Positions 35,573 through 51,048 of a DNA stretch of 64,000 nucleotides are shown piece by piece. Both the position numbers and the translations under genes were made by a program. This DNA comes from Cytobacillus oceanisediminis 2691 (GTDB taxonomy: Bacteria; Bacillota; Bacilli; Bacillales; Cytobacillaceae). Below the pieces are notes generated by a model. That model was not told the DNA's origin, did no database searches, and saw nothing but the letters and a program-made list of their open reading frames with translations. The stretch covers positions 1,835,501-1,899,500 of the forward strand of contig NZ_CP015506.1 of assembly GCF_000294775.2 (NCBI RefSeq). Direction: 5' to 3'. The first letter of the stretch is position 1, and every line of letters starts with the position of its first letter.

Positions 35573-36577
35573 ATGAGTTTCTTTAAAAAACTAAAAGAAA
35601 AAATCACTAAGCAGACAGATAGTGTTACTGAAAAGTTTAAAGACGGATTAACCAAAACGCGCGATAATTTTTCAAATAAGGTAAATGACCTTGTATCCAG
35701 GTACCGTAAAGTGGATGAGGAATTTTTTGAGGAACTGGAAGAAATCTTAATTGGGGCGGATGTTGGATTCGATACTGTCATGGAATTGGTCGAAGAGCTG
35801 AGAAGGGAAGTAAAACGCAAGAATATTCAGGATCCTCGCGATGTGCAGGCTGTCATCTCAGAAAAGCTTGTAGAAATTTATGACAGTGCAGGCGAAACCT
35901 CCACAGAATTAAATATTCAATCTGAGGGACTAACTGTTATCCTATTTGTTGGTGTTAACGGAGTCGGTAAAACGACCACGATCGGAAAACTTGCCCATAA
36001 GTTCAAAAGTGAAGGAAAAAATGTCCTGCTTGCAGCAGGAGATACCTTCCGTGCAGGAGCGATTGAACAGCTTGAGGTGTGGGGAGAACGTGTCGGCGTT
36101 GATGTCATTAAGCAGGGAGCTGGCTCTGACCCTGCAGCTGTCATGTATGATGCCGTTCAATCTGCCAAGTCCCGCAAAGCTGATATTTTAATCTGTGACA
36201 CTGCGGGACGCCTGCAGAATAAAGTCAATCTGATGAAAGAATTAGAGAAAGTAAAGCGTGTAATAGAAAGGGAAGTACCGGGGGCCCCGCATGAAGTATT
36301 GCTAGTACTTGATGCTACAACTGGACAAAATGCCATGATTCAGGCTAAGACCTTCAAGGAAGCAACTGATGTTTCTGGTATTGTTCTTACAAAACTGGAT
36401 GGAACTGCAAAGGGCGGCATCGTTCTTGCAATCAGAAATGAACTTGAAATCCCGGTGAAATTTGTAGGTTTAGGTGAAAAAATGGATGACCTGCAGGAAT
36501 TCAATGCAGAACAGTATGTCTATGGACTCTTTGCCGACATAGTCGAAAGAGAAGCAGAAGAAGAAGAGGAAGAATAA
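35573..36577 (+). CDS. ftsY: Signal recognition particle receptor FtsY
   Basis: FtsY is the SRP receptor that brings Ffh-bound ribosomes to the SecYEG translocon. The product is 334 aa with a short basic N-terminal helix for membrane association and no long acidic A domain, as in Bacillus. The NG GTPase domain has [15 protein letters not shown] (about 126-140), DTAGRLQ and [10 protein letters not shown]. It ends with an acidic run of glutamates. A terminator follows at once. In B. subtilis the next genes are ylqB, ylxM and ffh; here a 12.5 kb cluster intervenes. Confidence 0.98.
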
Positions 36578-36586
36578 AATTGTTAC

Positions 36587-36620
36587 ACAGCCGGAGAGCG
36601 AGTTCTCCGGCTGTTTTTTT
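36587..36620 (+). terminator. Rho-independent terminator after ftsY
   Basis: ACAGCCGGAGA pairs with TCTCCGGCTGT and is followed by TTTTTTT. It separates the rnc-smc-ftsY operon from the accessory cluster that follows. Confidence 0.92.
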
Positions 36621-36737: not shown

Positions 36738-36765
36738 GGAACTTTTTGTCAGCCGGCTGCGTCTA
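36738..36765 (+). promoter_or_regulatory. Candidate ECF-sigma promoter upstream of the envelope cluster
   Basis: GGAAC (36738-36742) followed by T5, then 17 nt between GGAAC and CGTCTA (36760-36765), resembles Bacillus ECF-sigma promoters (AAC-type -35, CGTC-type -10, spacer of about 16-17). It lies about 100 nt before the TTG start of the first gene. If used, the cluster would respond to envelope stress. This rests on pattern matching; no ECF sigma gene is in the window. Confidence 0.45.
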
Positions 36766-36868: not shown

Positions 36869-39244
36869 TTGCACGGAAAATTAAAAGTGATCATCATGGC
36901 TTTATTCTGTTTTGTGTTAATGTTTCATCCATTCCAAACAGCAGAAGCTGCCAGCACAGACATCAAAGTTTCTATAGATGAGGGCTTTGGCGGAAAAGTG
37001 AAAAGAGGAGAGGGGTTTCCTCTGCGGATTAAGATGGAAAATACAGGAGAGGCTTTTAGCGGGGATTTGCTGATAAGTTACCATCCATCCTACAATACGA
37101 GCGGTGCGGTTACTGTAAAAGTAGAGCTTCCTGCCGGAACAGCTAAGGAATACCTGGTTTCCATCCCTGGCATGACAGAGGACCACCCTTCCATGTATCA
37201 GAACATTCCTTTACTGACTCTTTATGAAGGTGATTGGAAAGACGGAAAAAAGGTTAGTTTTAAAGGCGAAAATACATTAAAGCCGAAATTTATAGATACG
37301 GCAACTGAAGTAATTGGTGTTCTCAGTGAAAACTATGACCGTGTAAAAGAATTGAGGACGCTTCCTTCAAAATCGATGATTGAACTTAATAAGGAAGATT
37401 TGCCGGATGAAGCGACAGGATTGGAAACACTCGATTATTTGCTGATTGATGAATTCAAGATATCCCAGCTTAGTGACAAACAGCAACAAGCTATAAGGAA
37501 CTGGGTATACAACGGTGGAGCATTGATTGCCGGAGGAGGACCTGATGCAAGCGGTGCCTATGGAGAACTATATTCTTTGCTGCCAATGAAATCTGAAAAC
37601 GAGGCCGCCGGTACAGTAAAATTCCTGCAGTCAGCAAAAAGCGAGGAGCCGGATTTTAAAGAACTCAACTTCTTTACTGGTCCCATTAAAGCGGGTGCAG
37701 AAGTTATCGCTGAAAGCGGGGATCTTCCAGCAGCAGTGAAAAAGGAGTATGGAAGCGGGACGATTCTGCAGACAGCTTTTTCACTGGGAGATGAGCCTTT
37801 ATCTTCATGGCAGGGATACAACACATGGTTTGCAGACTTTATTAATCAGGCAACAGGTGCCGGCATTGGATCCAGCCCATATTCTCAGGATTACCTGGAC
37901 CAGCTGTATTGGGAATTTGCAGAAGTGAATGAATTCTTTCCTGCATCCAATTTTTCAATCGGGCAGCTTATTGGCCTTTTTACCGGTTATATTATTCTGA
38001 TAGTGCCTGTTCTTTATTTTGTATTAAGAAAGCTTGATAAACGGGAGCATTCCTGGTGGATCATTCCTTCCATCGCCATATTAATGGGGACAGCTGTCTT
38101 TGGAATGGGAGCAAAAGATAGAATTTCTCAGCCGCAGCTGAACCAGATGGGGATCTATAACGTGAATAACAATCTGCTTACCGGATATCAGGCATCAACC
38201 CTGCTTTCAAATAAAAGCGGTGAATATACCCTCTCAATGCCCAAAGGTGAATTTAATGCAGTGGTTTATTCAAACAATTCCAATACATCAGATCCCCTTA
38301 GAGGCGGAATCATGGCTGAAAAGGTAAAAAACAATGAGATTATTTTCCCTGAGGTAGAATATTGGTCATCCAAAACAATTTACGGAAAGGCCCAGACCGA
38401 TATCAATGGGAAGTTTAAAGCGGACCTCACCCTTAAGGAAAAGAGATTAACTGGAACAATCAAAAACGAAAGTGAGTATGATTTTGAAGAATTATATATT
38501 TGGTCAGGCAATGAAGCAATCAAATTAGGGCCAATCAAGAAAGATGAGGCAATTAAAGTGGATAAAACCATAAAGCAGTCCCTGCTGAGCAGACCATATG
38601 GAGGAACTTTTAATGGGGCATATCCTGCCAATGGCCAAAATGATATAAATAGGTTAAGAAGAGAAAAGCTTGAATATGCCTCCACTACATTTCTGCTTGG
38701 GGATGTTGCTCAGCCAGTCCTTGCGGGGATTACAAAAGAATCAATTATTGATGTAGCCATGAGAGGGAAGAAGGAAAAACAGAATAACACAAATCTGATC
38801 CTTCAGCCATTTGAGGCCATAAATGAGTTCTCCGGATCCTTTACATTGAAGGATGGAATGATGGCAGCTGATTGGAATGTGATCCAGGGTCAGATTTATG
38901 AAAAAGGCATGGGCAGCACGAATGCAGAAATGATGCTTGAAGACGGAGAATATGAATATATTCTCAGCCTCCCGAAGCAGCTAAAAGAGAAAACATATAG
39001 ATTAGAAGAAATTTCGGTAAGGATCAATAGCCAAAACGTACAGTATTCGATAAAAAACCATAAAACGGGTGAGTGGCTGCCGATTGAACCAGATCAAAGG
39101 AGCATAAAGCTGACAAGTAAAGATGACTTAACCCAGTACGTTTCGAAAGAAGGCCGTTTTATTATGAAGCTGAATAAATCAGCTCAGGGTGATCCTTTCG
39201 TTCAATTGCCGGCTGTTACGATCAAAGGGGAGGTGGCAAAATGA
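36869..39244 (+). CDS. Secreted-type two-helix membrane protein, first gene of the MoxR-VWA-ABC cluster
   Basis: The function is not recognised. The chosen start is TTG 36869, six nt after GGGGGAG, giving about 791 aa. An ATG at 36854 has no ribosome-binding site. A signal peptide (about 1-27) ends at TAEAA. An outer domain (about 28-360) includes a glutamine-amidotransferase-like fold hint, LDYLLIDEF followed by NWVYNGGALIAGGG. Two membrane helices lie at about 362-386 and 396-414, and a second large outer domain runs to the end. The N-terminal part recalls the auxiliary proteins encoded beside ABC-2 transporters. It overlaps the next gene (ABC ATPase) by 4 nt, suggesting it works with the transporter. 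Confidence 0.8.
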   Translation: MHGKLKVIIMALFCFVLMFHPFQTAEAASTDIKVSIDEGFGGKVKRGEGFPLRIKMENTGEAFSGDLLISYHPSYNTSGAVTVKVELPAGTAKEYLVSIPGMTEDHPSMYQNIPLLTLYEGDWKDGKKVSFKGENTLKPKFIDTATEVIGVLSENYDRVKELRTLPSKSMIELNKEDLPDEATGLETLDYLLIDEFKISQLSDKQQQAIRNWVYNGGALIAGGGPDASGAYGELYSLLPMKSENEAAGTVKFLQSAKSEEPDFKELNFFTGPIKAGAEVIAESGDLPAAVKKEYGSGTILQTAFSLGDEPLSSWQGYNTWFADFINQATGAGIGSSPYSQDYLDQLYWEFAEVNEFFPASNFSIGQLIGLFTGYIILIVPVLYFVLRKLDKREHSWWIIPSIAILMGTAVFGMGAKDRISQPQLNQMGIYNVNNNLLTGYQASTLLSNKSGEYTLSMPKGEFNAVVYSNNSNTSDPLRGGIMAEKVKNNEIIFPEVEYWSSKTIYGKAQTDINGKFKADLTLKEKRLTGTIKNESEYDFEELYIWSGNEAIKLGPIKKDEAIKVDKTIKQSLLSRPYGGTFNGAYPANGQNDINRLRREKLEYASTTFLLGDVAQPVLAGITKESIIDVAMRGKKEKQNNTNLILQPFEAINEFSGSFTLKDGMMAADWNVIQGQIYEKGMGSTNAEMMLEDGEYEYILSLPKQLKEKTYRLEEISVRINSQNVQYSIKNHKTGEWLPIEPDQRSIKLTSKDDLTQYVSKEGRFIMKLNKSAQGDPFVQLPAVTIKGEVAK

Positions 39245-40176
39245 TCGAAATTATGGATTTATCGAAAAGATACGGAAAATTTACAGCACTTGATTCTTTA
39301 AATTTAAATATAGAAAAAGGCAGTGTATTTGGTTTTGTCGGACAGAATGGTGCAGGAAAATCCACAACCTTCTCCATTTTGGCAACCTTACTTGCCCCCA
39401 CTTCGGGCTCTGCGTACGTAAACGGGTATGATGTTCAAAAGGATTCAAAACTCGTGAGGAAGCAGATAGGCTATATGCCAGATTTCTTCGGGGTTTATGA
39501 CCAGCTTAAGGCTGATGAATATCTGCACTTCTACGGTGCGAGTTACGGCATACCATTCGCAGAACGCGAGAAGCTGATACCGCAGCTTCTCGACCTAGTC
39601 AACTTGTCAAATAAAAGAGAGTCATATGTAGACCTATTATCAAGAGGCATGAAGCAGCGTCTCTGCCTGGCCAGGTGTCTTATCCATGATCCTGAAGTGC
39701 TGATTCTGGATGAACCTGCATCAGGACTTGACCCAAGAGCAAGGGTTGAAATGAGGGAAATATTAAAAGAATTGAAAAGCATGGGCAAAACGATTTTAAT
39801 ATCTTCACATATACTGCCTGAACTTGCAGAAATGTGCGATACCATCGGCATTATTGACCAGGGAAAACTGGTGGCTCAGGGGTCTGTTGCTGATATTCAG
39901 TCACAGCTGAGGGGAGAAAGGCTGATCATTGTAAAAGTTCATGGAAGTTCAAAAAAGGCCGTTTCTTTCTTTGAGGATGATCCTAATATATTTAAATTGG
40001 CTTTACTGGAAGACGGAGCATCTTTTCAGTTTATTTATAAAGGGACAGCTGAAGAACAAACAGAACTGCTGAAAAGAGCCATTTTAAATAATTTAGCGAT
40101 CACCAGCTTTGCAGAAGCAGAAACGGATCTGGAAGATGTCTTTATGGAAATTACAAAGGGAGTTGAGCTGACATGA
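39241..40176 (+). CDS. ABC transporter ATP-binding protein (ABC-2/GldA-like)
   Basis: The 311-aa cytosolic ATPase has Walker A GQNGAGKSTT (about 35-44), the Q-loop region GYMPDFFGVYDQL, the signature LSRGMKQR, Walker B VLILDEPASGLDP and the switch His in SSHILPE. The C-terminal 90 residues form an extra domain seen in ABC-2 drug or lipid exporters. Its partner is the permease gene that overlaps it by 4 nt. The substrate cannot be deduced from sequence. Confidence 0.95.
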   Translation: MIEIMDLSKRYGKFTALDSLNLNIEKGSVFGFVGQNGAGKSTTFSILATLLAPTSGSAYVNGYDVQKDSKLVRKQIGYMPDFFGVYDQLKADEYLHFYGASYGIPFAEREKLIPQLLDLVNLSNKRESYVDLLSRGMKQRLCLARCLIHDPEVLILDEPASGLDPRARVEMREILKELKSMGKTILISSHILPELAEMCDTIGIIDQGKLVAQGSVADIQSQLRGERLIIVKVHGSSKKAVSFFEDDPNIFKLALLEDGASFQFIYKGTAEEQTELLKRAILNNLAITSFAEAETDLEDVFMEITKGVELT

Positions 40177-41021
40177 AGAATTTAGTCGTAAATCCTGTTC
40201 TGAATAAAGAGTTTAAGCTCCGCTTCCGCAGCTTTAAAAGCTACCTGGGGGTACTCTTTTACCTCTTGGCATTAGGGCTGATCATTGTTGGTTTTATCTT
40301 TATAGAATCATTGTCAAATAACATGCAGGGCTTTTTTAAACCTGATCAGAGCCGGACAATGTTTATGGTCCTATCTATATTGCAGCTTGGCTTAATTCTG
40401 TTTATTACTCCCGGTTTAACAGCTGGGGTTATCAGCAGTGAAAGAGAGAGGCAGACCTTAAATATCATGCTCACGACGACCCAAAGCTCTTCTAGCATTA
40501 TTTTGAGCAAGCTGATTTCTTCCATTTCATATTTGATTTTGCTTATTGCGGCAAGTTTGCCTCTCTATAGCTTTGTATTTTTATTTGGAGGTATTTCCCC
40601 AGGTCAGCTGCTTACGACAATGGGATTTTATTTATTTACCATCCTGGTTTATGGAAGTCTCGGGGTCTTATTCTCAACGCTCATTAGAAAAACAATTGTC
40701 TCGATGGTTACCACCTATGGGGTTACTTTATTTCTAGCTGGAGGAACGGCATTCCTGACTTTGATTTTTATGCAATTAACCAATGCATATGGCTATACAG
40801 GGACTCAGCCAACAAATCCTCTTGCATACTTCCCGGCTATGCTTAACCCGGTCATTATTCTAATGAGCACCTTTGAGCCGGAAATGACCAATGAAATTAC
40901 TAGATCAACAGGCATTGAATTTCCTTTATGGATTTCATACTTAATTTCGTACACATTAATTTTCATTGGAGCTATTCTGCTGAGCATAAAAAAACTCCGT
41001 CCCAATATGAAAAAGGGCTAG
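40173..41021 (+). CDS. ABC-2 type permease
   Basis: The 282-aa integral membrane protein has about six hydrophobic helices (about 23-45, 65-85, 108-135, 143-165, 172-195 and 255-275). It carries the ABC-2 element SSERERQTLNIMLTTT near residue 90, as in GldF/NatB-like permeases. It starts 4 nt before the end of the ATPase gene and so is translationally coupled. Together they would form a homodimeric or accessory-assisted exporter. Confidence 0.92.
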   Translation: MKNLVVNPVLNKEFKLRFRSFKSYLGVLFYLLALGLIIVGFIFIESLSNNMQGFFKPDQSRTMFMVLSILQLGLILFITPGLTAGVISSERERQTLNIMLTTTQSSSSIILSKLISSISYLILLIAASLPLYSFVFLFGGISPGQLLTTMGFYLFTILVYGSLGVLFSTLIRKTIVSMVTTYGVTLFLAGGTAFLTLIFMQLTNAYGYTGTQPTNPLAYFPAMLNPVIILMSTFEPEMTNEITRSTGIEFPLWISYLISYTLIFIGAILLSIKKLRPNMKKG

Positions 41022-41086
41022 TATTTATTCGGGCAAATCCCTGGGAGACGGGATTGCCCGTAAATTTTAATAAGGGAATGATATCG

Positions 41087-42664
41087 GTGGAAAACCGCAA
41101 TCAATATCTTAGACTTTTAAAACCGGTAAAAAGACAGCTCCTATTTCAGCTGATCGTTAAGGAATTCCAGGTGTTCCTTTTATCGGCTGCTGTCTTGGCC
41201 TTTTTTCTTATGATGGCTGCAAGATTTTTTGTTATCCCATTTCTCCAAAACTATCTCCTGCTGATTTTATTTCTGTCTGCTATTTATGCAGCTTTTCGAA
41301 TTTGGAAGAAGCGTCCTGACATGATCCAGACTGCATCATTGTATAACACGTTTGTAGCTGAAGACAGGGTCATTACAGCCCATTCTTTCCTTCACGATGA
41401 TGGCATTCTTGCAAGATTGCAGCTGGCAGATGCAGTAAAGCATATGAAAAAGGTGCATCATCAGGTTTTAGGCAGGAAGAAAACTTTCATTCTTCCTAAA
41501 CCTTTTCTAATGTTTTTGTCTTTCCTAGGTCTGGCAGTTCTTTTGTACATGATTCCCGGCGAGAAAATGGAATTGGCGCTAAAACAGGAAAAAGAAATCA
41601 AGATAATTGAAGAAGCTAAAGAGAAACTTGAGAAAAAAGCTGAGAAAGAAAAGAATCCTGAAGTGAAAAAAGCATTAGAAGAAGCAAAAGACAAGATTGC
41701 AGAAAAAAAGTCAGCTGAGGAAGCTTTGAAGGAATTAGAGAAACAAACAAAAAGCTTTGAGTTGAAAGCAATTAAAGAAAAAGAAAAATCAATAGCCCTG
41801 GATAATATTAAAAATAATCTTGATAAGAGCGGGTTAGAACAATTAAGCCGAATGCTGAAAGAAAAAGATCTGGCTTCCTTTAGGGAAGAGTTTTCAAAGC
41901 TTGATAAGCAGAGAAAGGAACTTAATGAATATCAAAGAAATGCCTTGAAAGAGCTTACTGGAAGTGATGCACAGTTGTCTGAAGAAGAGCTGACAAGTCT
42001 CCTGGATCAGCTCGAAAAGGCATTGCAATCAGAAGAGCTTTTAAAACAGCTGGCTGCAGCACAGGAAGCTCTGCAGAGTTCAGGGGTTTCTTTACAGCAG
42101 CAGATGGCTGCGAATGGAATGCCCTCGGGACAGCTAGCGTTTTCGCCGCCTGGCCAGCCTGGCAGTTCAGGAAACGCCTCCAATACGCCTCAGCAGGGGC
42201 AGCAGAATAATTCAAATCAGCAAAATAATCAAAATCAAGCTGGCAATAGCTCAAACAGCAGCAATGGCAGCGGAGCGGGTTCAGGCAGCGGCTCAGGAAA
42301 TGGAACCGGCTCAGGAAATGGTTCGGGATCTGGTACCGGGGCTGGCTCAGGGAATGGTTCAGGCAGCGGTCTTGGAGGAGGTGCCGGGCTCGGACAGGGG
42401 TCTAGGGAGCTGCTCACCATCCCATCTGGCATGGAAGGGAAGACGAATATTGAAAATGACAACGGCAGCCTTGGACAGGGGAAACCAGGACAACAGTTTG
42501 AAGGGGAAGGTCCTGTCTTAAAAGGGAATATCAGACCATACAGTGAAGTTTTTGGGAATTATGAAAAGGCATACAGGCAAAGTACGGACCGGTACAAGCT
42601 TCCAGCTGATTTAGAGGAAATCGTTAAAAGTTATTTTACTAGTATAGATCCTGACAAGGAGTGA
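41087..42664 (+). CDS. Three-helix membrane protein with coiled coil and Gly/Ser-rich linker, MoxR-associated
   Basis: No firm family name can be given; it may relate to DUF4175-like proteins found with MoxR genes. The chosen start is GTG 41087, nine nt after AAGGGA, giving 525 aa; an ATG at 41078 is possible but sits on that site. Two membrane helices lie in the first 75 residues and a third near 146-164. A Lys/Glu-rich coiled coil spans about 170-345. A low-complexity Gln/Asn, then Gly/Ser stretch (about 350-440) follows. The C-terminal motif (SEVFGNYEKAYRQ, then VKSYFTSIDP) recalls the ends of proteins encoded beside MoxR. It ends 5 nt before moxR. Confidence 0.85.
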   Translation: MENRNQYLRLLKPVKRQLLFQLIVKEFQVFLLSAAVLAFFLMMAARFFVIPFLQNYLLLILFLSAIYAAFRIWKKRPDMIQTASLYNTFVAEDRVITAHSFLHDDGILARLQLADAVKHMKKVHHQVLGRKKTFILPKPFLMFLSFLGLAVLLYMIPGEKMELALKQEKEIKIIEEAKEKLEKKAEKEKNPEVKKALEEAKDKIAEKKSAEEALKELEKQTKSFELKAIKEKEKSIALDNIKNNLDKSGLEQLSRMLKEKDLASFREEFSKLDKQRKELNEYQRNALKELTGSDAQLSEEELTSLLDQLEKALQSEELLKQLAAAQEALQSSGVSLQQQMAANGMPSGQLAFSPPGQPGSSGNASNTPQQGQQNNSNQQNNQNQAGNSSNSSNGSGAGSGSGSGNGTGSGNGSGSGTGAGSGNGSGSGLGGGAGLGQGSRELLTIPSGMEGKTNIENDNGSLGQGKPGQQFEGEGPVLKGNIRPYSEVFGNYEKAYRQSTDRYKLPADLEEIVKSYFTSIDPDKE

Positions 42665-42669
42665 CTGCA

Positions 42670-43674
42670 ATGTCGGTAACACAGGAAAAAGAACAGAAAT
42701 TCGCACAAGCAGCAGATATCATTGCAAGAGTAAAAGATGAAATTCAATCATTTATAGTCGGCCAGGAAGAAGTGGTCGAACATGTACTATGGAGCATATT
42801 CTCAGGAGGGCATGTTTTGCTTGAAGGTTTGCCAGGGCTGGGTAAAACTATGCTCATTAAAACCATTGCTGAAGTACTTGATCTTAAATTTTCACGCATT
42901 CAATTCACCCCTGATATTATGCCTTCCGATATAACTGGAACCATGCTGCTTCAGCCTGATGAGGCTGGCAGGCAAACATTCAGTTTTCATAAAGGGCCCA
43001 TTTTCGCCAACATCATTCTGGCAGATGAAATTAACAGGGCAACACCAAAAACACAAAGTGCCCTGCTCGAGGCAATGGGAGAAAAAACGGTCACGATTAT
43101 GGGCGAAACCAAAAAGATGGAAAAGCCATTTTTTGTACTCGCAACTCAAAACCCGATTGATATGGAAGGGACTTATCCCTTGCCGGAAGCACAAACGGAC
43201 CGGTTTTTATGCAAGGTGAATGTTGTGTATCCGACTAAAGAAGAATTAAAAGAAATTGCCAGGAGGACAACGGGGTCGCAAAAAATCCATTTAAATAAAG
43301 CTGCCGGATTGAAGGATGTCATTGCTCTTCAGGAGCTTTCGAGAGAAATTCTCCTATCAGATGAAATCCTGGATTATGCCGTTTGGATGGTCACTGCAAC
43401 GCACCCGGATTCAGAGGGGGCACCAGAAACAGTGAAAAAGCACGTCCAATATGGGAGCGGTCCACGCGGCCTTCAGAGTCTGATAAGTATGGCAAAAGCA
43501 AGAGCCATGTGCTCCGGACGATTCCATGTATCAATAGGGGACATTAAAAACGTTGCCTATCCGGTTTTGCGGCATCGTCTTATTTTGAACTTTGAGGGAG
43601 AAGCAGCGGGTATTTCAGCGGATTCAATTATTGAAGTTTTGTTAAAAGAAACTTCCTGGGGAGCTAAGAGCTGA
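42670..43674 (+). CDS. MoxR-family AAA+ ATPase
   Basis: MoxR ATPases act as chaperones or remodelers for VWA-domain partners. The start at ATG 42670 follows AAGGAG with 8 nt spacing (a GTG at 42661 lies on that site), giving 334 aa. Walker A is GLPGLGKT (53-60), Walker B LADEINRAT (near 118-126), sensor 1 ATQNPIDMEGTYPLPEAQ, with the arginine-finger region DRF and the lid PRGLQSL. It sits before a DUF58 gene and two VWA genes, the classical MoxR neighbourhood. B. subtilis has another set (yeaC-yeaD-yebA), but here no transglutaminase follows. Confidence 0.96.
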   Translation: MSVTQEKEQKFAQAADIIARVKDEIQSFIVGQEEVVEHVLWSIFSGGHVLLEGLPGLGKTMLIKTIAEVLDLKFSRIQFTPDIMPSDITGTMLLQPDEAGRQTFSFHKGPIFANIILADEINRATPKTQSALLEAMGEKTVTIMGETKKMEKPFFVLATQNPIDMEGTYPLPEAQTDRFLCKVNVVYPTKEELKEIARRTTGSQKIHLNKAAGLKDVIALQELSREILLSDEILDYAVWMVTATHPDSEGAPETVKKHVQYGSGPRGLQSLISMAKARAMCSGRFHVSIGDIKNVAYPVLRHRLILNFEGEAAGISADSIIEVLLKETSWGAKS

Positions 43675-44540
43675 TGAACAGCCATCAAGCTATTCTTGGA
43701 AAGCTTCAAAAACGAAAGATTGCTGCAAAGACAAGGAAAAGAGGATATCATTCAGGGTCCAGGAAATCCCATAAATTCGGATCTTCCATGGAATTCTCTG
43801 ATTTCAGGGCCTATCAGCCTGGTGACGATATTCGGCAAATAGATTGGAATGTCTATGGCAGAACACAAAAACATTATATTAAACGCTTCCTGGATGAGCA
43901 GGAGCTTTCTATTGCGGTTTACCTGGATGCAACGTCTTCAATGACAAAAATCCAGCAGAAATGGGAATATGCCAAAGCGCTGGCATCAGCTTTAAGCTTT
44001 ATGGTGCTTTCAAGTGAAGATCGGCTTTTCTTTTCAGCAGTTTCTTCTGCAGGCGTACAGCCTATCAAAAGGAAAGGCTCTGTTTACAGCAGGCGAACGT
44101 TCATGGAAATCCAAAAAATTGAACCTGCAGCTCAGTCCACAAACTTTCTGGGCTGTCTGAAAGAAACTCTTTCTAAACATCAGCAGCTTGCTGTAATAAT
44201 AGCGGATGGCTTTGAGCCCCTTCAGGATTGGGAAAGCCTTTTTAGGAAGCTCAGGGGGTTAAAACAGGAGTTCTGGCTATTTCAGGTGCAGGCAGATGAA
44301 GAGCTTACTCCTGCATATTCTGGAGATATAAAGTTGATTGATAGTGAAATTGGGACTGCTGTAAATGTCAGCATGAGCCCTTCCATATTAGCTGAATATG
44401 AAAAGCGCCTAAAAGAACATAATGAACAGCTTGAGATTATATGCAAACGGTATGGCGGTCAGTATATCTTTGCTCCGGAAACAAGAGATCTTCAGTCCGT
44501 TCTTTTCAGGGATCTGTATGCGAAGGGGCTGGTCAGGTGA
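43674..44540 (+). CDS. DUF58 domain protein
   Basis: The 288-aa product has the DUF58 signature at about residues 42-61 (SDFRAYQPGDDIRQIDW) and a VWA-like fold with LDATSSM at about 84-90. Its predicted helices are soluble, so it is likely cytosolic and may bridge MoxR to the membrane VWA proteins. The ATG overlaps the moxR stop codon by one base. DUF58 proteins have no agreed biochemical activity. Confidence 0.93.
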   Translation: MNSHQAILGKLQKRKIAAKTRKRGYHSGSRKSHKFGSSMEFSDFRAYQPGDDIRQIDWNVYGRTQKHYIKRFLDEQELSIAVYLDATSSMTKIQQKWEYAKALASALSFMVLSSEDRLFFSAVSSAGVQPIKRKGSVYSRRTFMEIQKIEPAAQSTNFLGCLKETLSKHQQLAVIIADGFEPLQDWESLFRKLRGLKQEFWLFQVQADEELTPAYSGDIKLIDSEIGTAVNVSMSPSILAEYEKRLKEHNEQLEIICKRYGGQYIFAPETRDLQSVLFRDLYAKGLVR

Positions 44541-44547
44541 GGACACA

Positions 44548-46320
44548 ATGCAATTCTTAAATCCTATCTATTTTGTATTAGCCATTTTCATAGGGGCAGT
44601 TATCTTATTTTATTTCTTTCGGAAGCAGTACACTGAAAAGACCGTTTCATCCAATCTGCTCTGGGAGCAGGTGCTGAACGAATGGCGGGCTTCCCCTTGG
44701 CTGAAAAATCTTCAGCAGAATCTATTATTTTGGCTGCAATTATTGGCTCTGATCTTATTGATGCTGGCCCTTGTGCGCCCATTTTGGCTTGAAGATTCTT
44801 TAAAAGGAGAACATTTAATCATCATTATAGACCCATCCGCCTCTATGTCGGCTGAACACGGAGGAAAGAGCCGTTTTGAGATGGCAAAAGAGGAAATGCT
44901 TGACCTTGCCGGCAAACTTAATGGCCATCAGGTAACCCTGATTAAAGCAGGAGAGAAAAATGAGATCCTATTAAGCCGTGAAGATGATCCAAATGCCATT
45001 CGCAGAACCATTGATGGGCTGAAACTTACTTATGAACATGAAAATATGGATAAAGCCATTCTTTTGGCAGGTTCCTTATCTTCTGGAAAAGACACAGCTC
45101 TTCATATTTTTTCAGATTCGGCTGTAAAGAATGATTTAATGGAGGAACTGGCTGGCCTATACACTGTTGCACATAATATCGGAGAGGATGCAAGGAACGT
45201 CTCGCTGCAATCGTTTGGTACAGCTGCAGCTGGTGATGGTATCTCAGCCATTGCGGTGATAGAAAACCAGTCTTCCGAAAATATAGAAACAGGTTTTACC
45301 GTCCAATTTGAGGATGAAGTCTTGTTTGAACAAAATTTATCATTGAAAGCAAATGAACAAACAACCGTCCAAATTAAAAACCTGCCTGAAAAACCTTATT
45401 ATGAGGCATCCGTTTCCATTAATGACGGCTACAGAGCAGATAATTTCGCAGCCTCTATTTACACAGACCCAAAACCAAAGGTATACACAATGGGGGATGT
45501 AAATCCGTTTGCGGTGAAGGGCTTTCAAACCATAGGAGCCGAATTGCTGCAGACGGATCCAGCTGCTCTCAAAGGTTTTGAAATGAAGGGTGTGGTTGTA
45601 GCAGAAGGAAGCACATTATCGGAACTTCCAGAGCTGCCAATGATCTTTTTTAACACAGGCAAGGAAAAAACAAAACTAAAAGAGGCAATTTCGGGGGATG
45701 AGGATCCTTTATTTGAATATGCAGACTTTGGGCGTGTGTATATCAGTTCCGCTTCCGCTGCATTGAAAGGAGAATGGGAGACTGTTTTGAAAAGTGGAGA
45801 CATTCCTTTAATACAGAGGGGAATGCAGAATGGACAGCCAATTATTATTGTCAATTTCGATCTATCCGACACAGATTGGCCGCTCCTGCCAGGTTTTCCG
45901 ATCTTTTTGTATAACTCTTACCAGTGGTTATCCCAGCAATCAGATTTCCTTGGATATTTCAGCGCCGGAGAAGAGAGATGGATAAATATTGGCAAAGGAA
46001 ATGGAAGATGGGAGATTTTCAATAATAAAGACGAAAATCTCTACTCCCTTGATCTAAACAAAGAAAACTTTAAAGCTCCTGTGATTCCCGGAACTTACCA
46101 GGCGGTATCAGGAAATCAAATTTATTATTTTTCTGTCCTTCTGGATGAAAGGGAGAAAAATGCAGAAATAGCAGAATCTTTTACAGTGAATGACAAATCA
46201 TCTGAAAAAAACAGCATGATCCAAAGGCCCAACGAAAGCCTCTGGTTCTGGCTGGCTTTAATTGCTTTTATACTGATTGCTATCGAATGGGAGGTATATC
46301 GCCGTGGGCATCGAGGTTAA
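44548..46320 (+). CDS. BatA-like VWA membrane protein
   Basis: From ATG 44548, with AGGTGAGG upstream, it is 590 aa. An in-frame ATG at 44422 lies deep inside the DUF58 gene and is rejected. It starts with the BatA N-terminal segment MQFLNPIYFVLA and has helices at about 5-24 and 59-77. A VWA domain follows with the metal-site (MIDAS) motif D95-PSAS. A large outer region extends to a C-terminal helix (about 563-583) ending RRGHRG. The positive loop between helices one and two suggests that the VWA domain is outside the cell. It overlaps the next gene by 17 nt. Confidence 0.9.
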   Translation: MQFLNPIYFVLAIFIGAVILFYFFRKQYTEKTVSSNLLWEQVLNEWRASPWLKNLQQNLLFWLQLLALILLMLALVRPFWLEDSLKGEHLIIIIDPSASMSAEHGGKSRFEMAKEEMLDLAGKLNGHQVTLIKAGEKNEILLSREDDPNAIRRTIDGLKLTYEHENMDKAILLAGSLSSGKDTALHIFSDSAVKNDLMEELAGLYTVAHNIGEDARNVSLQSFGTAAAGDGISAIAVIENQSSENIETGFTVQFEDEVLFEQNLSLKANEQTTVQIKNLPEKPYYEASVSINDGYRADNFAASIYTDPKPKVYTMGDVNPFAVKGFQTIGAELLQTDPAALKGFEMKGVVVAEGSTLSELPELPMIFFNTGKEKTKLKEAISGDEDPLFEYADFGRVYISSASAALKGEWETVLKSGDIPLIQRGMQNGQPIIIVNFDLSDTDWPLLPGFPIFLYNSYQWLSQQSDFLGYFSAGEERWINIGKGNGRWEIFNNKDENLYSLDLNKENFKAPVIPGTYQAVSGNQIYYFSVLLDEREKNAEIAESFTVNDKSSEKNSMIQRPNESLWFWLALIAFILIAIEWEVYRRGHRG

Positions 46321-49084
46321 ATATCCCTTCCTGTTTCTGTTCCTGATTCCTGCTGTCATTATGGTTTTTTTGTTTATTCGAAATCACAGAGGAAAAGGCA
46401 ACGAAAAATTTTGGATTGCCAGTCTAAGACTGGTCATTTTCTCATTGTTAATTTTTGCACTAACCGTCCCGCAGGTCCTCCTTCCGGTTAAGGGGCAGAC
46501 CGTCGTATATCTTGCAGACCGCTCTGCAAGCATCGGTTCAAATGATGAAGCACTTGCCTGGATAGAAAACAGTGCCAGCAAAAGGAAAAGTGAGGATCAA
46601 TTTGCGGTGGCGGCTTTTGGCAAAAATGTAGTGCTTGAACAGAATTTGGGCAGGAACCGTGAAGCTATTACCGAATTTAACGGGAAAGCAGATGATTCTC
46701 AATCGAATCTGGAAGCAGGCCTGCAATTTGCCGCTTCACTCATTCCGAGGGATTCTTCTGGCAGAATTGTCTTGATGACGGACGGAAATGAAACGGCAGG
46801 CAAAAGCCTGGAGGCTGCCTCGGTTTTAAAGAATCGAAATATCGAGATTGACCATGTGCCATTAAGAACAGCAGCAGGTGACGATGTATCAATTTCAGAA
46901 TTAAAGATGCCTCCATCACTTTATTTAGGAGAAGAGGCTCCGATTACAATAGAAGTTACCAGCAATATTGCCAAAGAAGCTGATATCAGATTATCTGTAA
47001 ATCATAAAGAGGTTTTAAAGGAAAGCGTTCAAGTGAATGAAGGGAAAAATGTATATACCTTTACTCACAAGGCAGATACTGCAGGATTAACGGTATATAA
47101 AGCAGAGATAGCTGCTGACCAGGACACCTTCTCTGAAAACAATACACTGCATTCGGTTGTTAATGTTAAGGGAACTCCTAAGGTCCTGATCGTACAAGGG
47201 AAGGACGCGGGTGATATTGCGAATCTGTTAAAAGGTTCAGGCCTCGAGACAGACACGGTTCTCCCAGAGAAGCTTCCAACCGTTCTCTCAGGGTATTTGC
47301 AATATCAGTCGATTATTTTTAATAATGTTCCTGCAACAGTTATCTCAGAGCATCAAATGACGCTGATGGAGAAGGCAGTTAAGGAATTCGGCACTGGTTT
47401 TATTATGTTCGGCGGTGAAGAAAGCTTCGGGCTGGGGGGCTATTTTAAAACTCCGATTGAGAAATTGCTGCCGGTGGATATGGATATCAAGGGCAAGAAA
47501 GAAATGCCTTCCTTAGGCCTGGTATTAGTTATGGACCGCTCTGGAAGCATGGCCGGGAATAAAATTGAATTGGCAAAAGAAGCGGCTGTCCGATCAGTGG
47601 AACTGCTGCGTGAAGAAGATACACTCGGATTCATTGCATTTGATGACCGGCCATGGGAAATCCTTGAAACCGAGCCTCTCAAAGATAAAAAGAAGGCAAT
47701 TGAAAAAATCAGATCTATAACTCCAGGCGGGGGGACAGAAATCTTTACTTCTCTGGAACAAGCCTACAGTGAGCTTGAAGAATTGCAGCTTCAGAGAAAG
47801 CATATTATTTTGCTGACAGATGGCCAATCTGCCACAAATGGAGACTATGAGCTTTTAATCGAAGGCGGGAAAGAGAAAAATATCACTCTATCAACTGTTG
47901 CACTTGGTCAGGATGCTGATAGAGGGCTTCTTGAAGATCTTGCGGGAATGGGATTAGGGCGTTTTTATGATGTTACAGACTCTTCCGTCATTCCGAGCAT
48001 TTTATCACGTGAAACCGTAATGGCTACGAGAACCTATATCGAAGACAATCCATTCTTTCCAAGTGTTCAGCCCTACCCGGACTGGTCCTCACTCTTTGAA
48101 AAAGGTGTTCCGGAAATGAATGCCTATATAGCTGCTACGGCCAAGCCGCGAGCACAGGTGCCGCTGTTAAGCGAAAAAGAGGATCCTGTACTTGCTGAAT
48201 GGCAATACGGAATGGGGCGGGCAGCTGCCTTTACATCCGACTCCTCGGGCAAATGGTCAGGAGATTGGGCCAGATGGGAAAAGTGGCCATCATTTATTAA
48301 TCAGCTTGTCACCAAAACCCTGCCGCAATATGAAAGTGAACCATACAGGGTTGCTGTTGAGAATAAGGATGGCAATACAGTGCTCAGCCTGGAGTCTGCG
48401 GCAAGCAGATCTTTGCCAATTGAGGCATCCATCGTATCGGAAACGGGCGATCAGATAGAAGCCAATATTAGGCTTACTGCTCCAGGTAAATATGAGGCGG
48501 CAATGCCTGAAAGTGCAGGAATGTATTTTTTAAATATTAAACAGACAGATCAAAATGGGAATATACAGGTTCATCAGACTGGTTTTACTATTCCCTATAC
48601 AGAAGAGTATTTGCAAAAGGGTACAAATAAAGAGCATTTGGAGACACTCTCAAAAATGACTGGCGGCAAGGAGCTGAAAAGCGGAGAAGAAGCTTTCCGA
48701 CCGCTGAAAAAACCAGCCAGCACCAAACAGCCAATCAGCGAATGGCTGCTTCTCGCTGCATTCCTGATCTTTTTTTCAGAAATCGCTTTAAGGCGCTTTG
48801 GCTTAACTGCTATCGCTGCGGGAATTTTGAAGAAAAACAGAAATAAAAAGGAAAAGCCAGAGGCTCCTATTAAAATTCAAAACCTTAAAGCTTCCAGGGA
48901 AAAAAAATCTCCTTCCGTGCAGATGCCTGATAAACTTCAAGGGGGAACTACTGTAAAAGAAACACCGGAAAAAACAAAAGAAAAGAAAAAAACAAACCGG
49001 CCAAAACCTCCAGCAGAATCCTCGCCGAAAGAAAGAGAAGAACGCATGAAAAGGCTGCTGGATGCAAAAAACAGGAAAAAGTAA
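46304..49084 (+). CDS. Large double-VWA membrane protein with amidotransferase-like middle domain
   Basis: From GTG 46304, nine nt after GGGAGG, it is 926 aa. Helices lie at about 8-25 and 41-60. A first VWA domain has a DRSAS metal-site motif near 72 and VLMTDG. A glutamine-amidotransferase-like stretch (about 295-395, with VLIVQGKDAG and FIMFGGEESFGLGGY) follows. A second VWA domain has DRSGS near 411, GGGTEIF and LLTDGQSA. After about 812-832, a third membrane helix, comes a Lys/Pro-rich cytosolic tail of about 94 residues. Two intact MIDAS motifs in one chain suggest two metal-dependent binding sites. It ends the cluster. Confidence 0.9.
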   Translation: MGIEVKYPFLFLFLIPAVIMVFLFIRNHRGKGNEKFWIASLRLVIFSLLIFALTVPQVLLPVKGQTVVYLADRSASIGSNDEALAWIENSASKRKSEDQFAVAAFGKNVVLEQNLGRNREAITEFNGKADDSQSNLEAGLQFAASLIPRDSSGRIVLMTDGNETAGKSLEAASVLKNRNIEIDHVPLRTAAGDDVSISELKMPPSLYLGEEAPITIEVTSNIAKEADIRLSVNHKEVLKESVQVNEGKNVYTFTHKADTAGLTVYKAEIAADQDTFSENNTLHSVVNVKGTPKVLIVQGKDAGDIANLLKGSGLETDTVLPEKLPTVLSGYLQYQSIIFNNVPATVISEHQMTLMEKAVKEFGTGFIMFGGEESFGLGGYFKTPIEKLLPVDMDIKGKKEMPSLGLVLVMDRSGSMAGNKIELAKEAAVRSVELLREEDTLGFIAFDDRPWEILETEPLKDKKKAIEKIRSITPGGGTEIFTSLEQAYSELEELQLQRKHIILLTDGQSATNGDYELLIEGGKEKNITLSTVALGQDADRGLLEDLAGMGLGRFYDVTDSSVIPSILSRETVMATRTYIEDNPFFPSVQPYPDWSSLFEKGVPEMNAYIAATAKPRAQVPLLSEKEDPVLAEWQYGMGRAAAFTSDSSGKWSGDWARWEKWPSFINQLVTKTLPQYESEPYRVAVENKDGNTVLSLESAASRSLPIEASIVSETGDQIEANIRLTAPGKYEAAMPESAGMYFLNIKQTDQNGNIQVHQTGFTIPYTEEYLQKGTNKEHLETLSKMTGGKELKSGEEAFRPLKKPASTKQPISEWLLLAAFLIFFSEIALRRFGLTAIAAGILKKNRNKKEKPEAPIKIQNLKASREKKSPSVQMPDKLQGGTTVKETPEKTKEKKKTNRPKPPAESSPKEREERMKRLLDAKNRKK

Positions 49085-49350: not shown

Positions 49351-49683
49351 ATGCTCGAAAAAACAACGAGGATGAACTACCTATATGATTTCTATCAATC
49401 GTTGTTAACTCCTAAGCAGAGAAGCTATATGTCCCTGTACTACCTGGATGATTTTTCGCTTGGAGAGATTGCCGAGGAATATGATGTTAGCCGGCAAGCG
49501 GTATATGACAACATTAAAAGAACAGAAGCAATGCTTGAAGAGTATGAAGAAAAGCTATTATTATTTCATAAATTTCAAGAGCGCAGCAAGCTGATTGCAG
49601 AAATAAAAGTGATGCTTCAGAAAGGCTCCCCTTCCCGAGAAGCATTGGAAGAAGCAGTGGCAGAGCTTGAGAAATTAGATTAG
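49351..49683 (+). CDS. ylxM: SRP-associated helix-turn-helix protein YlxM
   Basis: YlxM is a small protein encoded with ffh in Gram-positive bacteria and reported to modulate SRP. The 110-aa product has [20 protein letters not shown] followed by a sigma-70 region-4-like helix-turn-helix, [20 protein letters not shown] (about 47-66). AAGGGGG precedes the ATG. It ends 12 nt before ffh. Confidence 0.95.
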
Positions 49684-49695
49684 GAGGCGGCATAT

Positions 49696-51048
49696 ATGGC
49701 ATTTGAAGGATTGGCCGACCGACTGCAAAATACAATTCAGAAGATCCGCGGAAAAGGCAAAATCAATGAAGCGGATGTAAAAGAAATGATGCGTGAAGTC
49801 CGTCTCGCCCTTTTGGAAGCGGACGTAAACTTCAAAGTCGTCAAAGAGTTTGTCAAAAAAGTCAGCGAACGTGCTGTCGGACAGGAAGTATTAAAGAGCC
49901 TGACGCCAGGACAGCAAGTCATTAAGGTTGTTAAAGAAGAATTAACGGAACTGATGGGCGGAGAGCAAAGCAAAATTGCTGTCTCCAATCGTCCCCCGAC
50001 AGTCATTATGATGGTCGGTCTTCAGGGTGCCGGTAAAACGACTACAACCGGAAAGCTTGCAAACCTGCTCCGCAAAAAGTATAACCGCAATCCGATGCTG
50101 GTTGCTGCAGATATTTACCGCCCTGCGGCGATTAAACAGCTCGAAACACTTGGCAAACAGCTAAATATGCCGGTCTTCTCCCTTGGTGATCAAGTCAGTC
50201 CTGTTGAAATTGCAAAACAGGCAATCGCAAAGGCAAAAGAGGATCATCATGATTATGTTCTGATCGATACAGCAGGAAGGCTGCATGTGGATGAAGCCTT
50301 AATGGATGAGCTAAAGCAAATCAAAGAGCTTTCCAATCCAGATGAAATCTTCCTTGTTGTAGACGCCATGACTGGTCAAGATGCGGTTAATGTAGCGCAA
50401 AGCTTCAATGATCTGCTGGGTCTTACTGGGGTTGTCCTGACGAAGCTGGATGGCGATACTCGAGGCGGTGCCGCTCTATCCATTAGATCCGTAACAAACA
50501 CGCCGATTAAATTCGTCGGTCTTGGGGAAAAACTGGATGCGCTTGAAGCGTTCCATCCAGAACGGATGGCGTCCCGTATATTAGGTATGGGAGATGTCCT
50601 ATCCCTAATTGAAAAAGCACAGGCCAATGTGGATGAAGAAAAGGCAAAAGAGCTTGAGCAGAAGATGCGCACGGCTTCTTTCACATTCGATGATTTTTTG
50701 GATCAGCTTGGTCAGGTCCGCAGCATGGGACCGCTCGATGAGCTGCTGAAAATGATGCCTGGTGCAAACAAAATCAAAGGCTTGAATAATATCCAAATCG
50801 ACGAGAAGCAAATCACTCATGTTGAAGCGATTATTAAATCGATGACGAAGGAAGAGAAAACTCACCCTGAAATCATCAATGCAAGCCGCCGCAAACGGAT
50901 TGCCAAGGGAAGCGGAAGAACCGTGCCTGAAGTTAACCGTCTGCTGAAGCAATTTGAAGACATGAAAAAGATGATGAAGCAAATGGCTGGCATGCAGCAA
51001 AAAGGCAAGAAAAAAGGCGGATTTAAGCTTCCTTTTAACCCTTTTTAA
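49696..51048 (+). CDS. ffh: Signal recognition particle protein Ffh
   Basis: Ffh binds signal sequences and the SRP RNA and docks on FtsY. The 450-aa product has an N domain, a GTPase domain with GLQGAGKTTTTGKLA (about 108-122), DTAGRLHVDE, TKLDGDTRGGAA and GLGEKLD, and a methionine-rich M domain (about 300-450) ending in a Gly/Lys-rich tail. TTAGGAGGCGG lies upstream. Its receptor gene ftsY is 13 kb away because of the accessory cluster. Confidence 0.98.
   Translation: MAFEGLADRLQNTIQKIRGKGKINEADVKEMMREVRLALLEADVNFKVVKEFVKKVSERAVGQEVLKSLTPGQQVIKVVKEELTELMGGEQSKIAVSNRPPTVIMMVGLQGAGKTTTTGKLANLLRKKYNRNPMLVAADIYRPAAIKQLETLGKQLNMPVFSLGDQVSPVEIAKQAIAKAKEDHHDYVLIDTAGRLHVDEALMDELKQIKELSNPDEIFLVVDAMTGQDAVNVAQSFNDLLGLTGVVLTKLDGDTRGGAALSIRSVTNTPIKFVGLGEKLDALEAFHPERMASRILGMGDVLSLIEKAQANVDEEKAKELEQKMRTASFTFDDFLDQLGQVRSMGPLDELLKMMPGANKIKGLNNIQIDEKQITHVEAIIKSMTKEEKTHPEIINASRRKRIAKGSGRTVPEVNRLLKQFEDMKKMMKQMAGMQQKGKKKGGFKLPFNPF

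Follow-up and report, generated by a model that had tools for sequence, protein, structure and literature searches.

Eight genes of Cytobacillus oceanisediminis 2691, referred to here as g1 to g8, are the subject of this report. They follow one another on the + strand at positions 36869-49084 of a 64,000-nt stretch of the genome (contig NZ_CP015506.1, 1,835,501 to 1,899,500; "the window"), between ftsY and ylxM-ffh, where a preliminary description made from the sequence alone had placed them, and all eight open reading frames (ORFs) are present. From comparisons within the family of the window (Cytobacillaceae) and across the class Bacilli, we conclude that the eight genes are a real, old and conserved unit, in which an ATP-binding cassette (ABC) trio is joined to a MoxR/Bat-like module and which is likely under the control of a sigma factor of the extracytoplasmic function (ECF) type. 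Bracketed L, G and f numbers are our labels for loci, genomes and families.

Eight proteins and their borders

The first three genes encode the ABC trio. The g1 product (36869-39244) is an exported protein of 791 aa with a GATase1-like domain and a long C-terminal region, and it takes a GldG-like position in the trio. Simple hydropathy, on which all topologies given here are based, finds a signal-peptide-like start and two further membrane segments in it; no Pfam family scores above its cut-off (DUF7408 reaches 20.6 bits against 27), and its profile matches the solved GATase1-like protein 3soz at 2.3e-6. The g2 product (39241-40176) is a DrrA/GldA-like ABC ATPase (Pfam ABC_tran and DrrA1-3_C), and that of g3 (40173-41021) an ABC-2 permease with six hydrophobic segments (ABC2_membrane_2). 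The g4 protein (41087-42664), likewise with no Pfam family above cut-off, combines three membrane segments with a coiled coil and a Gly/Ser linker, and its C-terminal part carries the conserved motif PYxEVYxxY...VKxYFSxIxP.

The remaining genes resemble a Bat module. A MoxR-type AAA+ ATPase (Pfam AAA_3) is encoded by g5 (42670-43674), with 2r44 as its closest solved chain (1.5e-81), and its motifs are well kept among the 137 sequences compared (Walker A in 136, Walker B in 137, sensor 1 in 136, sensor 2 in 120). The DUF58 protein of g6 (43674-44540; named by Pfam) carries a DxS/TxSM motif like that of a metal-ion-dependent adhesion site (MIDAS), found in 133/133 DUF58 partners, and hydropathy shows no membrane segment in g2, g5 or g6. 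The protein of g7 (44548-46320) joins a BatA N-terminal domain (PF07584, 57 bits against a cut-off of 25.9) to a VWA domain (VWA_2) and has three membrane segments. The most elaborate product is that of g8 (46304-49084), in which an N-terminal BatB-like VWA domain (profile match to 3ibs at 9.8e-8) is followed by a second VWA domain at residues ~410-572, flanked in the profile search by GATase1-like stretches at 338-396 and 606-673, and then by a C-terminal membrane segment and a basic tail. Pfam places VWA over two stretches of this protein and GATase1_like at 27.3 bits (cut-off 27), and both MIDAS triads are invariant in 16 aligned sequences.

Both g7 and g8 have two predicted segments before the VWA region and one behind it, a layout that fits VWA parts lying outside the cell, in agreement with a BatA-like Borrelia protein whose VWA domain is reported to be periplasmic (PMC5700661). 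The predicted topology thus supports the arrangement proposed at the outset, with MoxR and DUF58 inside and the VWA domains outside.

The junctions from g1 to g8 measure -4, -4, +65, +5, -1, +7 and -17 nt, the +5 nt being counted with the ATG start of g5 at 42670. The last five values had been given correctly before; the first two, listed as gaps of 4 nt, are overlaps of 4 nt. Outside the unit, ftsY (35573-36577, + strand) forms the upstream border and is followed by a terminator-like hairpin at 36587-36614, and ylxM (49351-49683, + strand) forms the downstream border, with ffh behind it (ylxM-ffh together span 49351-51048).

Conservation, history and modularity

Within the family of the window, g1 is present in 55/151 genomes (the window genome counted) and in 11/25 genera. 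We drew stretches around 40 of the 54 other g1-bearing genomes, and in 38 of these 40 all eight ORFs are co-directional and arranged as in the window. One exception (L046) shows g4 only as a partial tblastn match, and the other (L019, in genome G150; also drawn as L173) has lost its MoxR half through an internal deletion that starts inside g4 and reaches into the last part of g8, with g1-g3 still open. In L031, a gap of 1575 nt separates g2 from g3. Of the 39 stretches in which both g7 and g8 were found, 33 retain the overlap of 17 nt between them. FtsY precedes and YlxM follows the unit in 35/40 stretches; of the other five, three show YlxM-Ffh only (L031, L046, L047), one FtsY only (L049), and one neither within the stretch (L020).

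The same interval was read in relatives that lack the unit. Among 19 related genomes without g1, a ylxM match was obtained in 18. A tblastn search at E up to 1e-3 shows none of the eight genes between ftsY and ylxM in any of these 18; the gap measures 112-1051 nt in 16 of them and 1852 and 3814 nt in the other two. One of these genomes without g1 (G007) carries elsewhere, at ~11.2-12.4 kb of L192 (G007:C233), an isolated fragment that resembles the second half of g8 with 48% identity and looks like a remnant. Distances among seven operon proteins (g4 left out), taken from 35 of the 40 stretches plus the window, track those of YlxM+Ffh in the 36 genomes (Mantel r 0.86, p 0.001; Spearman 0.72). 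Because the two sets of distances agree, vertical descent with repeated loss appears to be the simplest history in this family, and a recent insertion is disfavored. The earlier word "inserted" therefore describes the present state of the locus in this family; it does not carry over to other families, where the same eight genes occupy other genomic places, nor to the inheritance of the unit, which looks vertical.

Across the class, g1 was found in 129/348 Bacilli genomes (E up to 1e-3; the weakest match, in G296, has E 8.2e-4) and g8 in 67/348 (E up to 1e-20). These searches scored at most two candidates per genome, which makes absences less sure than presences. All 67 genomes with g8 also have g1 (hypergeometric 7e-36, a value that ignores kinship), and in 65 of them g1 lies 6.7-8.0 kb upstream of g8 on the same strand. 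In the remaining two, the genes are on different contigs (G215) or a divergent homologue stands elsewhere (G214): in the latter, a divergent open frame of 1221 aa with BatA and g8-like parts was seen at G214:C100:70325-73903, on a contig other than that of the g1 homologue. Outside the family, a scan of the collection with a g8 query from the Paenibacillaceae gave at least 494 relatives, and the plain full order is found in 63 of the best 80, all from Paenibacillus and its kin, as was the query; the other 17 loci seem incomplete because a contig or locus ends there or because of the ORF calls.

The association runs in one direction only, with g1 lacking g8 in 62/348 genomes and g8 lacking g1 in none. 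Of 39 distant stretches, 18 hold full sets and 21 have no g8, the latter comprising one full set cut by a contig end (L065) and 20 solo g1-g2-g3 trios. Sixteen of these trios come from the 62 g8-less genomes, three are second copies beside a full set (L060, L062, L085), and one is in G214. At L060, L062, L085 and L086 (f34) and at L087 (f26), the solo trio follows a gene whose product is anti-sigma-like and has a propeller-like part, and close by is an ORF resembling an ECF sigma (both read from the ORFs, with no family search), perhaps as a second, ECF-linked version of the trio. BatA scores above cut-off in 20/121 Bacilli and adjoins g8 by coordinates in 19 of the 20; in the other, G214, BatA and the g8-like part share one ORF, and the B. 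subtilis control has no BatA.

The MoxR proteins of the unit form one clade with support 1.0 (43 tips, seven of them re-fetched copies, against 18 other MoxR; 35 chosen members of the unit were used). Beyond the eight, no gene recurs at the borders from one family to another, as judged from the flanks read in clusters of at least four loci, where upstream flanks are often short. The preliminary description had taken the genes for one functional unit, and the co-occurrence, order and junctions conserved in the Bacilli, with borders at the eight genes in the flanks read, bear this out. Independent scatter of the homologues, which it had named as an observation that would speak against a unit, was not seen, as g8 was never found without g1 in the 348 genomes. 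The co-occurrence that it had proposed to check holds for all eight genes in 38 of the 40 family stretches and for g8 relative to g1, but g1 without g8 in 62 of the 348 genomes makes the unit modular.

A putative ECF-type promoter and its partners

A putative ECF-sigma-type promoter lies at 36738-36763 (+ strand), with a -35 element GGAAC separated by 17 nt from a -10 element CGTC that is followed by TATA. The ECF-sigma-type -10 sequence CGTCTA stands upstream of g1 in 36/41 family members (the window and the 40 stretches), against a chance level of 0.75 on average and 4 at most in first-order Markov resamplings. In the controls, it occurs upstream of ylxM in 0/39, on the reverse strand in 0, and upstream of g4 in 3/40, where it perhaps marks a second internal promoter. 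For sigma-M promoters of B. subtilis, CGTC is the published -10 consensus (PMC6827917).

Two types of -35 element precede the operon: type A, AAC-TTTT, and type B, TGTAGGG or TGTAGTG. Type B in a loose form (TG-N-AG[G/T]...CGTC) is present in 23/41 members (resampling mean 0.1; 0 on the reverse strand) and in a strict form in 17/41 (resampling mean 0.005). The window promoter belongs to type A (GGAACTTTTT...CGTCTATA from 36738), and the pattern GAACTTTT-N11-14-CGTCTA has a single occurrence in the whole window genome, so that a type-A regulon there was rejected and no cognate sigma can be named.

Type B leads to a sigma factor. The pattern TGTAGGG-N16/17-CGTCTA is rare, with 15 sites spread over 8 genomes where the reversed control has 2, and the 15 stand before this operon (5), before an operon of an ECF sigma, an anti-sigma and a small membrane protein (6), before a second ECF sigma (2) and before a VanZ-like gene (1), with one unassigned in the window genome. 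An anti-sigma match was obtained in 110 genomes, and we read the locus in 50 of them (the 30 best and 20 chosen). The sigma gene is present in 41, and the motif stands directly before it in 41/41 (TGTAG in 40, TGCAG in one); the sigma/anti-sigma operon is apparently self-regulated. As a pattern, the link between this sigma and the eight-gene operon is firm. The other nine loci, those of the window genome and eight near relatives, show no sigma gene in the 2-3 kb that were read, and it seems to have been lost there. The name YlaC is not used for this sigma, which scores 164.8 with NF007224, presumably the YlaC family, against a cut-off of 212.

Of the matches of the wider pattern TGTAGKG-N16/17-CGTCTA, 25 newly fetched loci were read, from 172 across the family. 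Thirteen precede that sigma, most of them at places already among the anti-sigma loci, five a second ECF-type sigma, three BacA (one with DedA ahead), two a MacB-type ABC pair (both from one genus), and two nothing. BacA and DedA proteins serve lipid-carrier recycling. The bacitracin-resistance gene bcrC is described as being under sigma-I/M/W/X (PMC3498285). No g1 was found in the genomes that carry the MacB sites and one of the BacA sites. The type-B motif before a second ECF-type sigma gene (L283, L299, L301, L304, L307, L220 and L231) suggests a sigma cascade.

These data make it probable, with good confidence, that the genes are one unit under ECF control, and the regulatory link is the part that is new here. 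Membership in an envelope-stress regulon, for which we looked for the CGTC -10 together with a -35 common to the sigma's own promoter, is somewhat favored: many relatives have both elements, and the window has the CGTC with a different -35. We rate this second claim lower because of the reversed-control count for the wider motif, which forms part of the evidence on the other side. There, the 172 matches of the wider pattern in 151 genomes compare with 69 for its reversed control, which has at least one match in 57 genomes, and the single sites before BacA, VanZ and MacB may therefore be chance. Type B precedes the operon in 17/24 sigma-bearing genomes against 0/7 sigma-less ones (Fisher p 0.0013, leaving out 10/41 loci with unclear sigma state), but the seven sigma-less genomes are close relatives, so that the p value rests on about one event, and 7 of the 24 sigma-bearing genomes have no type-B motif there. 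The anti-sigma gene also occurs in five members of the genus without the operon (G060, G087, G114, G123, G130), and the sigma/anti-sigma pair is therefore not dedicated to it. The anti-sigma homologue of the window genome is a short ORF of 119 aa (1382-1741 of L263, C1:389500-392600), beside which no sigma gene lies in that 3.1-kb stretch. This negative holds for the stretch, no genome-wide search for the sigma having been made, and the window promoter may accordingly be used by a different ECF factor. Beyond the family, CGTC[T/A]A precedes 7/18 full loci and 3/21 g8-less loci, L065 included among the latter (no control run). Finally, simple regular expressions find the start of the two MIDAS motifs in only 85 and 84 of 130 g8 sequences, and the DxS/TxS pattern in 115/129 g7 sequences; either conservation in these proteins is incomplete, or the expressions are too strict.

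A candidate envelope-stress machine

Taken together, the evidence points to an operon for a cell-surface machine of the Bacilli that would be induced by an ECF sigma factor, most likely under envelope stress. We give this explanation as a whole a probability of roughly 0.48, and regard a role in envelope stress as plausible. In such a machine, g1-g2-g3 would form a GldG/A/F-like ABC complex, and g4, g7 and g8 would sit in the same membrane with their long parts outside, as its outer partners. MoxR (g5) and the cytosolic, VWA-like DUF58 protein (g6) would act as a NorQ/NorD-like motor pair using ATP. DUF58 is proposed as the partner of MoxR because it is the only VWA-like protein of the unit without membrane segments. 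In the NorQ/NorD system, the MoxR ring holds its VWA partner via a finger in the pore, and is proposed to twist that partner so as to act on a membrane protein (PMC13036017). By analogy, the motor pair might remodel, assemble or eject the outer complex, or else act on a wall or membrane client held by the VWA and GATase-like domains, with the whole system responding to envelope damage; this specific motor step is tentative and somewhat doubtful. The trio occurs on its own, whereas g8 always came together with g1, which suggests a trio that serves as client or platform, with the MoxR/Bat part as its accessory motor. More speculative still, and rather unlikely as stated in full, is an ancient envelope-stress machine in which an ABC ATPase and MoxR/DUF58 motors work on one wall-facing VWA/GATase complex, switched by an ECF sigma together with BacA/DedA lipid-carrier recycling, for a force-generating repair or extrusion at the surface.

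Among known systems, NorQ/NorD and RavA/ViaA pair a MoxR with a VWA partner acting on membrane proteins; in the Bacilli unit the partner would be DUF58. The Bat (Bacteroides aerotolerance) operons share a MoxR with DUF58 adjoining, a BatA domain with VWA, and a BatB-like VWA. The Bacilli unit differs in its ABC trio, in g4, and in a g8 with two VWA domains and a split GATase-like domain, and its eight proteins give no BatC- or BatD-type match in Pfam or NCBIfam at E up to 0.1. GldAFG of Flavobacterium is a trio of the same types (ATPase, permease, exported GATase/flavodoxin-like subunit), from which the Bacilli trio differs in its coupling to MoxR/Bat genes; the GldA and GldF equivalog models score under their cut-offs (238.3 against 402.6 and 30.1 against 288.5 bits).

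A MoxR-DUF58-transglutaminase-type locus, which we take to be what is called yeaC-yeaD-yebA, also has MoxR and DUF58 adjacent, and lies at a separate place in the same genome (identity read from its ORFs, without a family search). The preliminary description had held the unit distinct from it for want of a transglutaminase, and rightly so: no such Pfam family occurs among the eight proteins, the locus is separate, and its MoxR belongs to a separate clade. The DUF58 protein there has 404 aa and a hydrophobic N-terminal region, whereas g6 is shorter and has no hydrophobic segment. The ORFs of L172 (C1:1677000-1693000 of the same genome) include another MoxR-DUF58 pair, the third there, which is accompanied by a membrane protein and has an ABC-type pair behind it. 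The moxR operon of Rhizobium leguminosarum is reportedly associated with envelope defects, though we did not find this in the literature.

What appears to be the closest precedent is archaeal. Makarova, Galperin and Koonin predicted in 2015 a secretion or membrane-remodelling complex around arCOG01314 (DUF4350, GldG-like) with MoxR and VWA proteins (PMC5898192). The complex comprises an exported GldG-like flavodoxin-type protein, a MoxR/GvpN AAA+ ATPase, secreted VWA proteins and extra membrane proteins, all from one gene neighbourhood, and its function is only predicted. It is described with Ig/S-layer-like proteins, whereas the Bacilli unit has a full ABC ATPase/permease pair, DUF58 and BatA, to which the coiled-coil, Gly-linker protein g4 and the ECF-type promoter are added. 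The g1 protein gives no DUF4350 match at E up to 0.1, and kinship to arCOG01314 may be proposed only at the level of the fold. The preliminary description had called the union of an ABC transporter with MoxR/VWA proteins uncharacterized. This stands insofar as we found no publication or experiment on this gene set, in a search that covered subscription journals thinly; the idea of a GldG-like/MoxR/VWA union is, given the archaeal prediction, not wholly without precedent (PMC5898192). As far as searched, the Bacilli unit would be an uncharacterized bacterial variant with a complete ABC pair, DUF58, BatA and g4.

Other functions may be considered. The genes might encode chaperones for an exported or membrane enzyme whose gene lies elsewhere, helping it to mature or to receive its cofactor, with the ABC pair supplying or removing a small ligand. 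MoxR-VWA pairs of known role do mature enzymes (PMC13036017, PMC3893208), NorQ/NorD acting for nitric oxide reductase is a precedent, and the MIDAS-like motif in all 133 DUF58 partners agrees with it; yet in the flanks read no enzyme gene accompanies the unit from family to family, and the motif-sharing genes look envelope-related, though the single sites among them may be chance, so that we consider this function improbable.

Of much the same low standing is the reading that the unit, like the archaeal complex, secretes a specific substrate or displays it on the surface. The component types are the same, with an exported flavodoxin/GATase-like protein, MoxR and VWA proteins (PMC5898192), and g1-g3 resemble GldG/A/F in type. 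In the flanks read, however, no conserved substrate gene lies in or near the unit, and GldA and GldF models score far under their cut-offs, as given above.

Still less likely are two independent functions that only shared control joins in one operon, the ABC genes exporting envelope-active compounds and the others forming a Bat-like stress module. Here the solo occurrence of g1 in 62/348 genomes and the open g1-g3 of L019 after most of g4-g8 were lost would be expected, but in the 348 genomes g8 is never without g1, and BatA adjoins g8 in 19 of the 20 BatA-bearing genomes among 121 Bacilli. An anti-phage defence system was rejected, since PADLOC gave only ATPase-type matches, for g2 and g5, and none for the other six.

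The role of Bat/MoxR-VWA modules is still unsettled, and in the sampled Bacilli BatA is found almost solely beside this ABC trio, with a promoter motif that ties the unit to a stress-response class. That motif suggests an inducing condition, and with it tractable soil bacteria in which the module could be studied. The unit may be regarded as a candidate for a new branch of the Gram-positive envelope-stress response.

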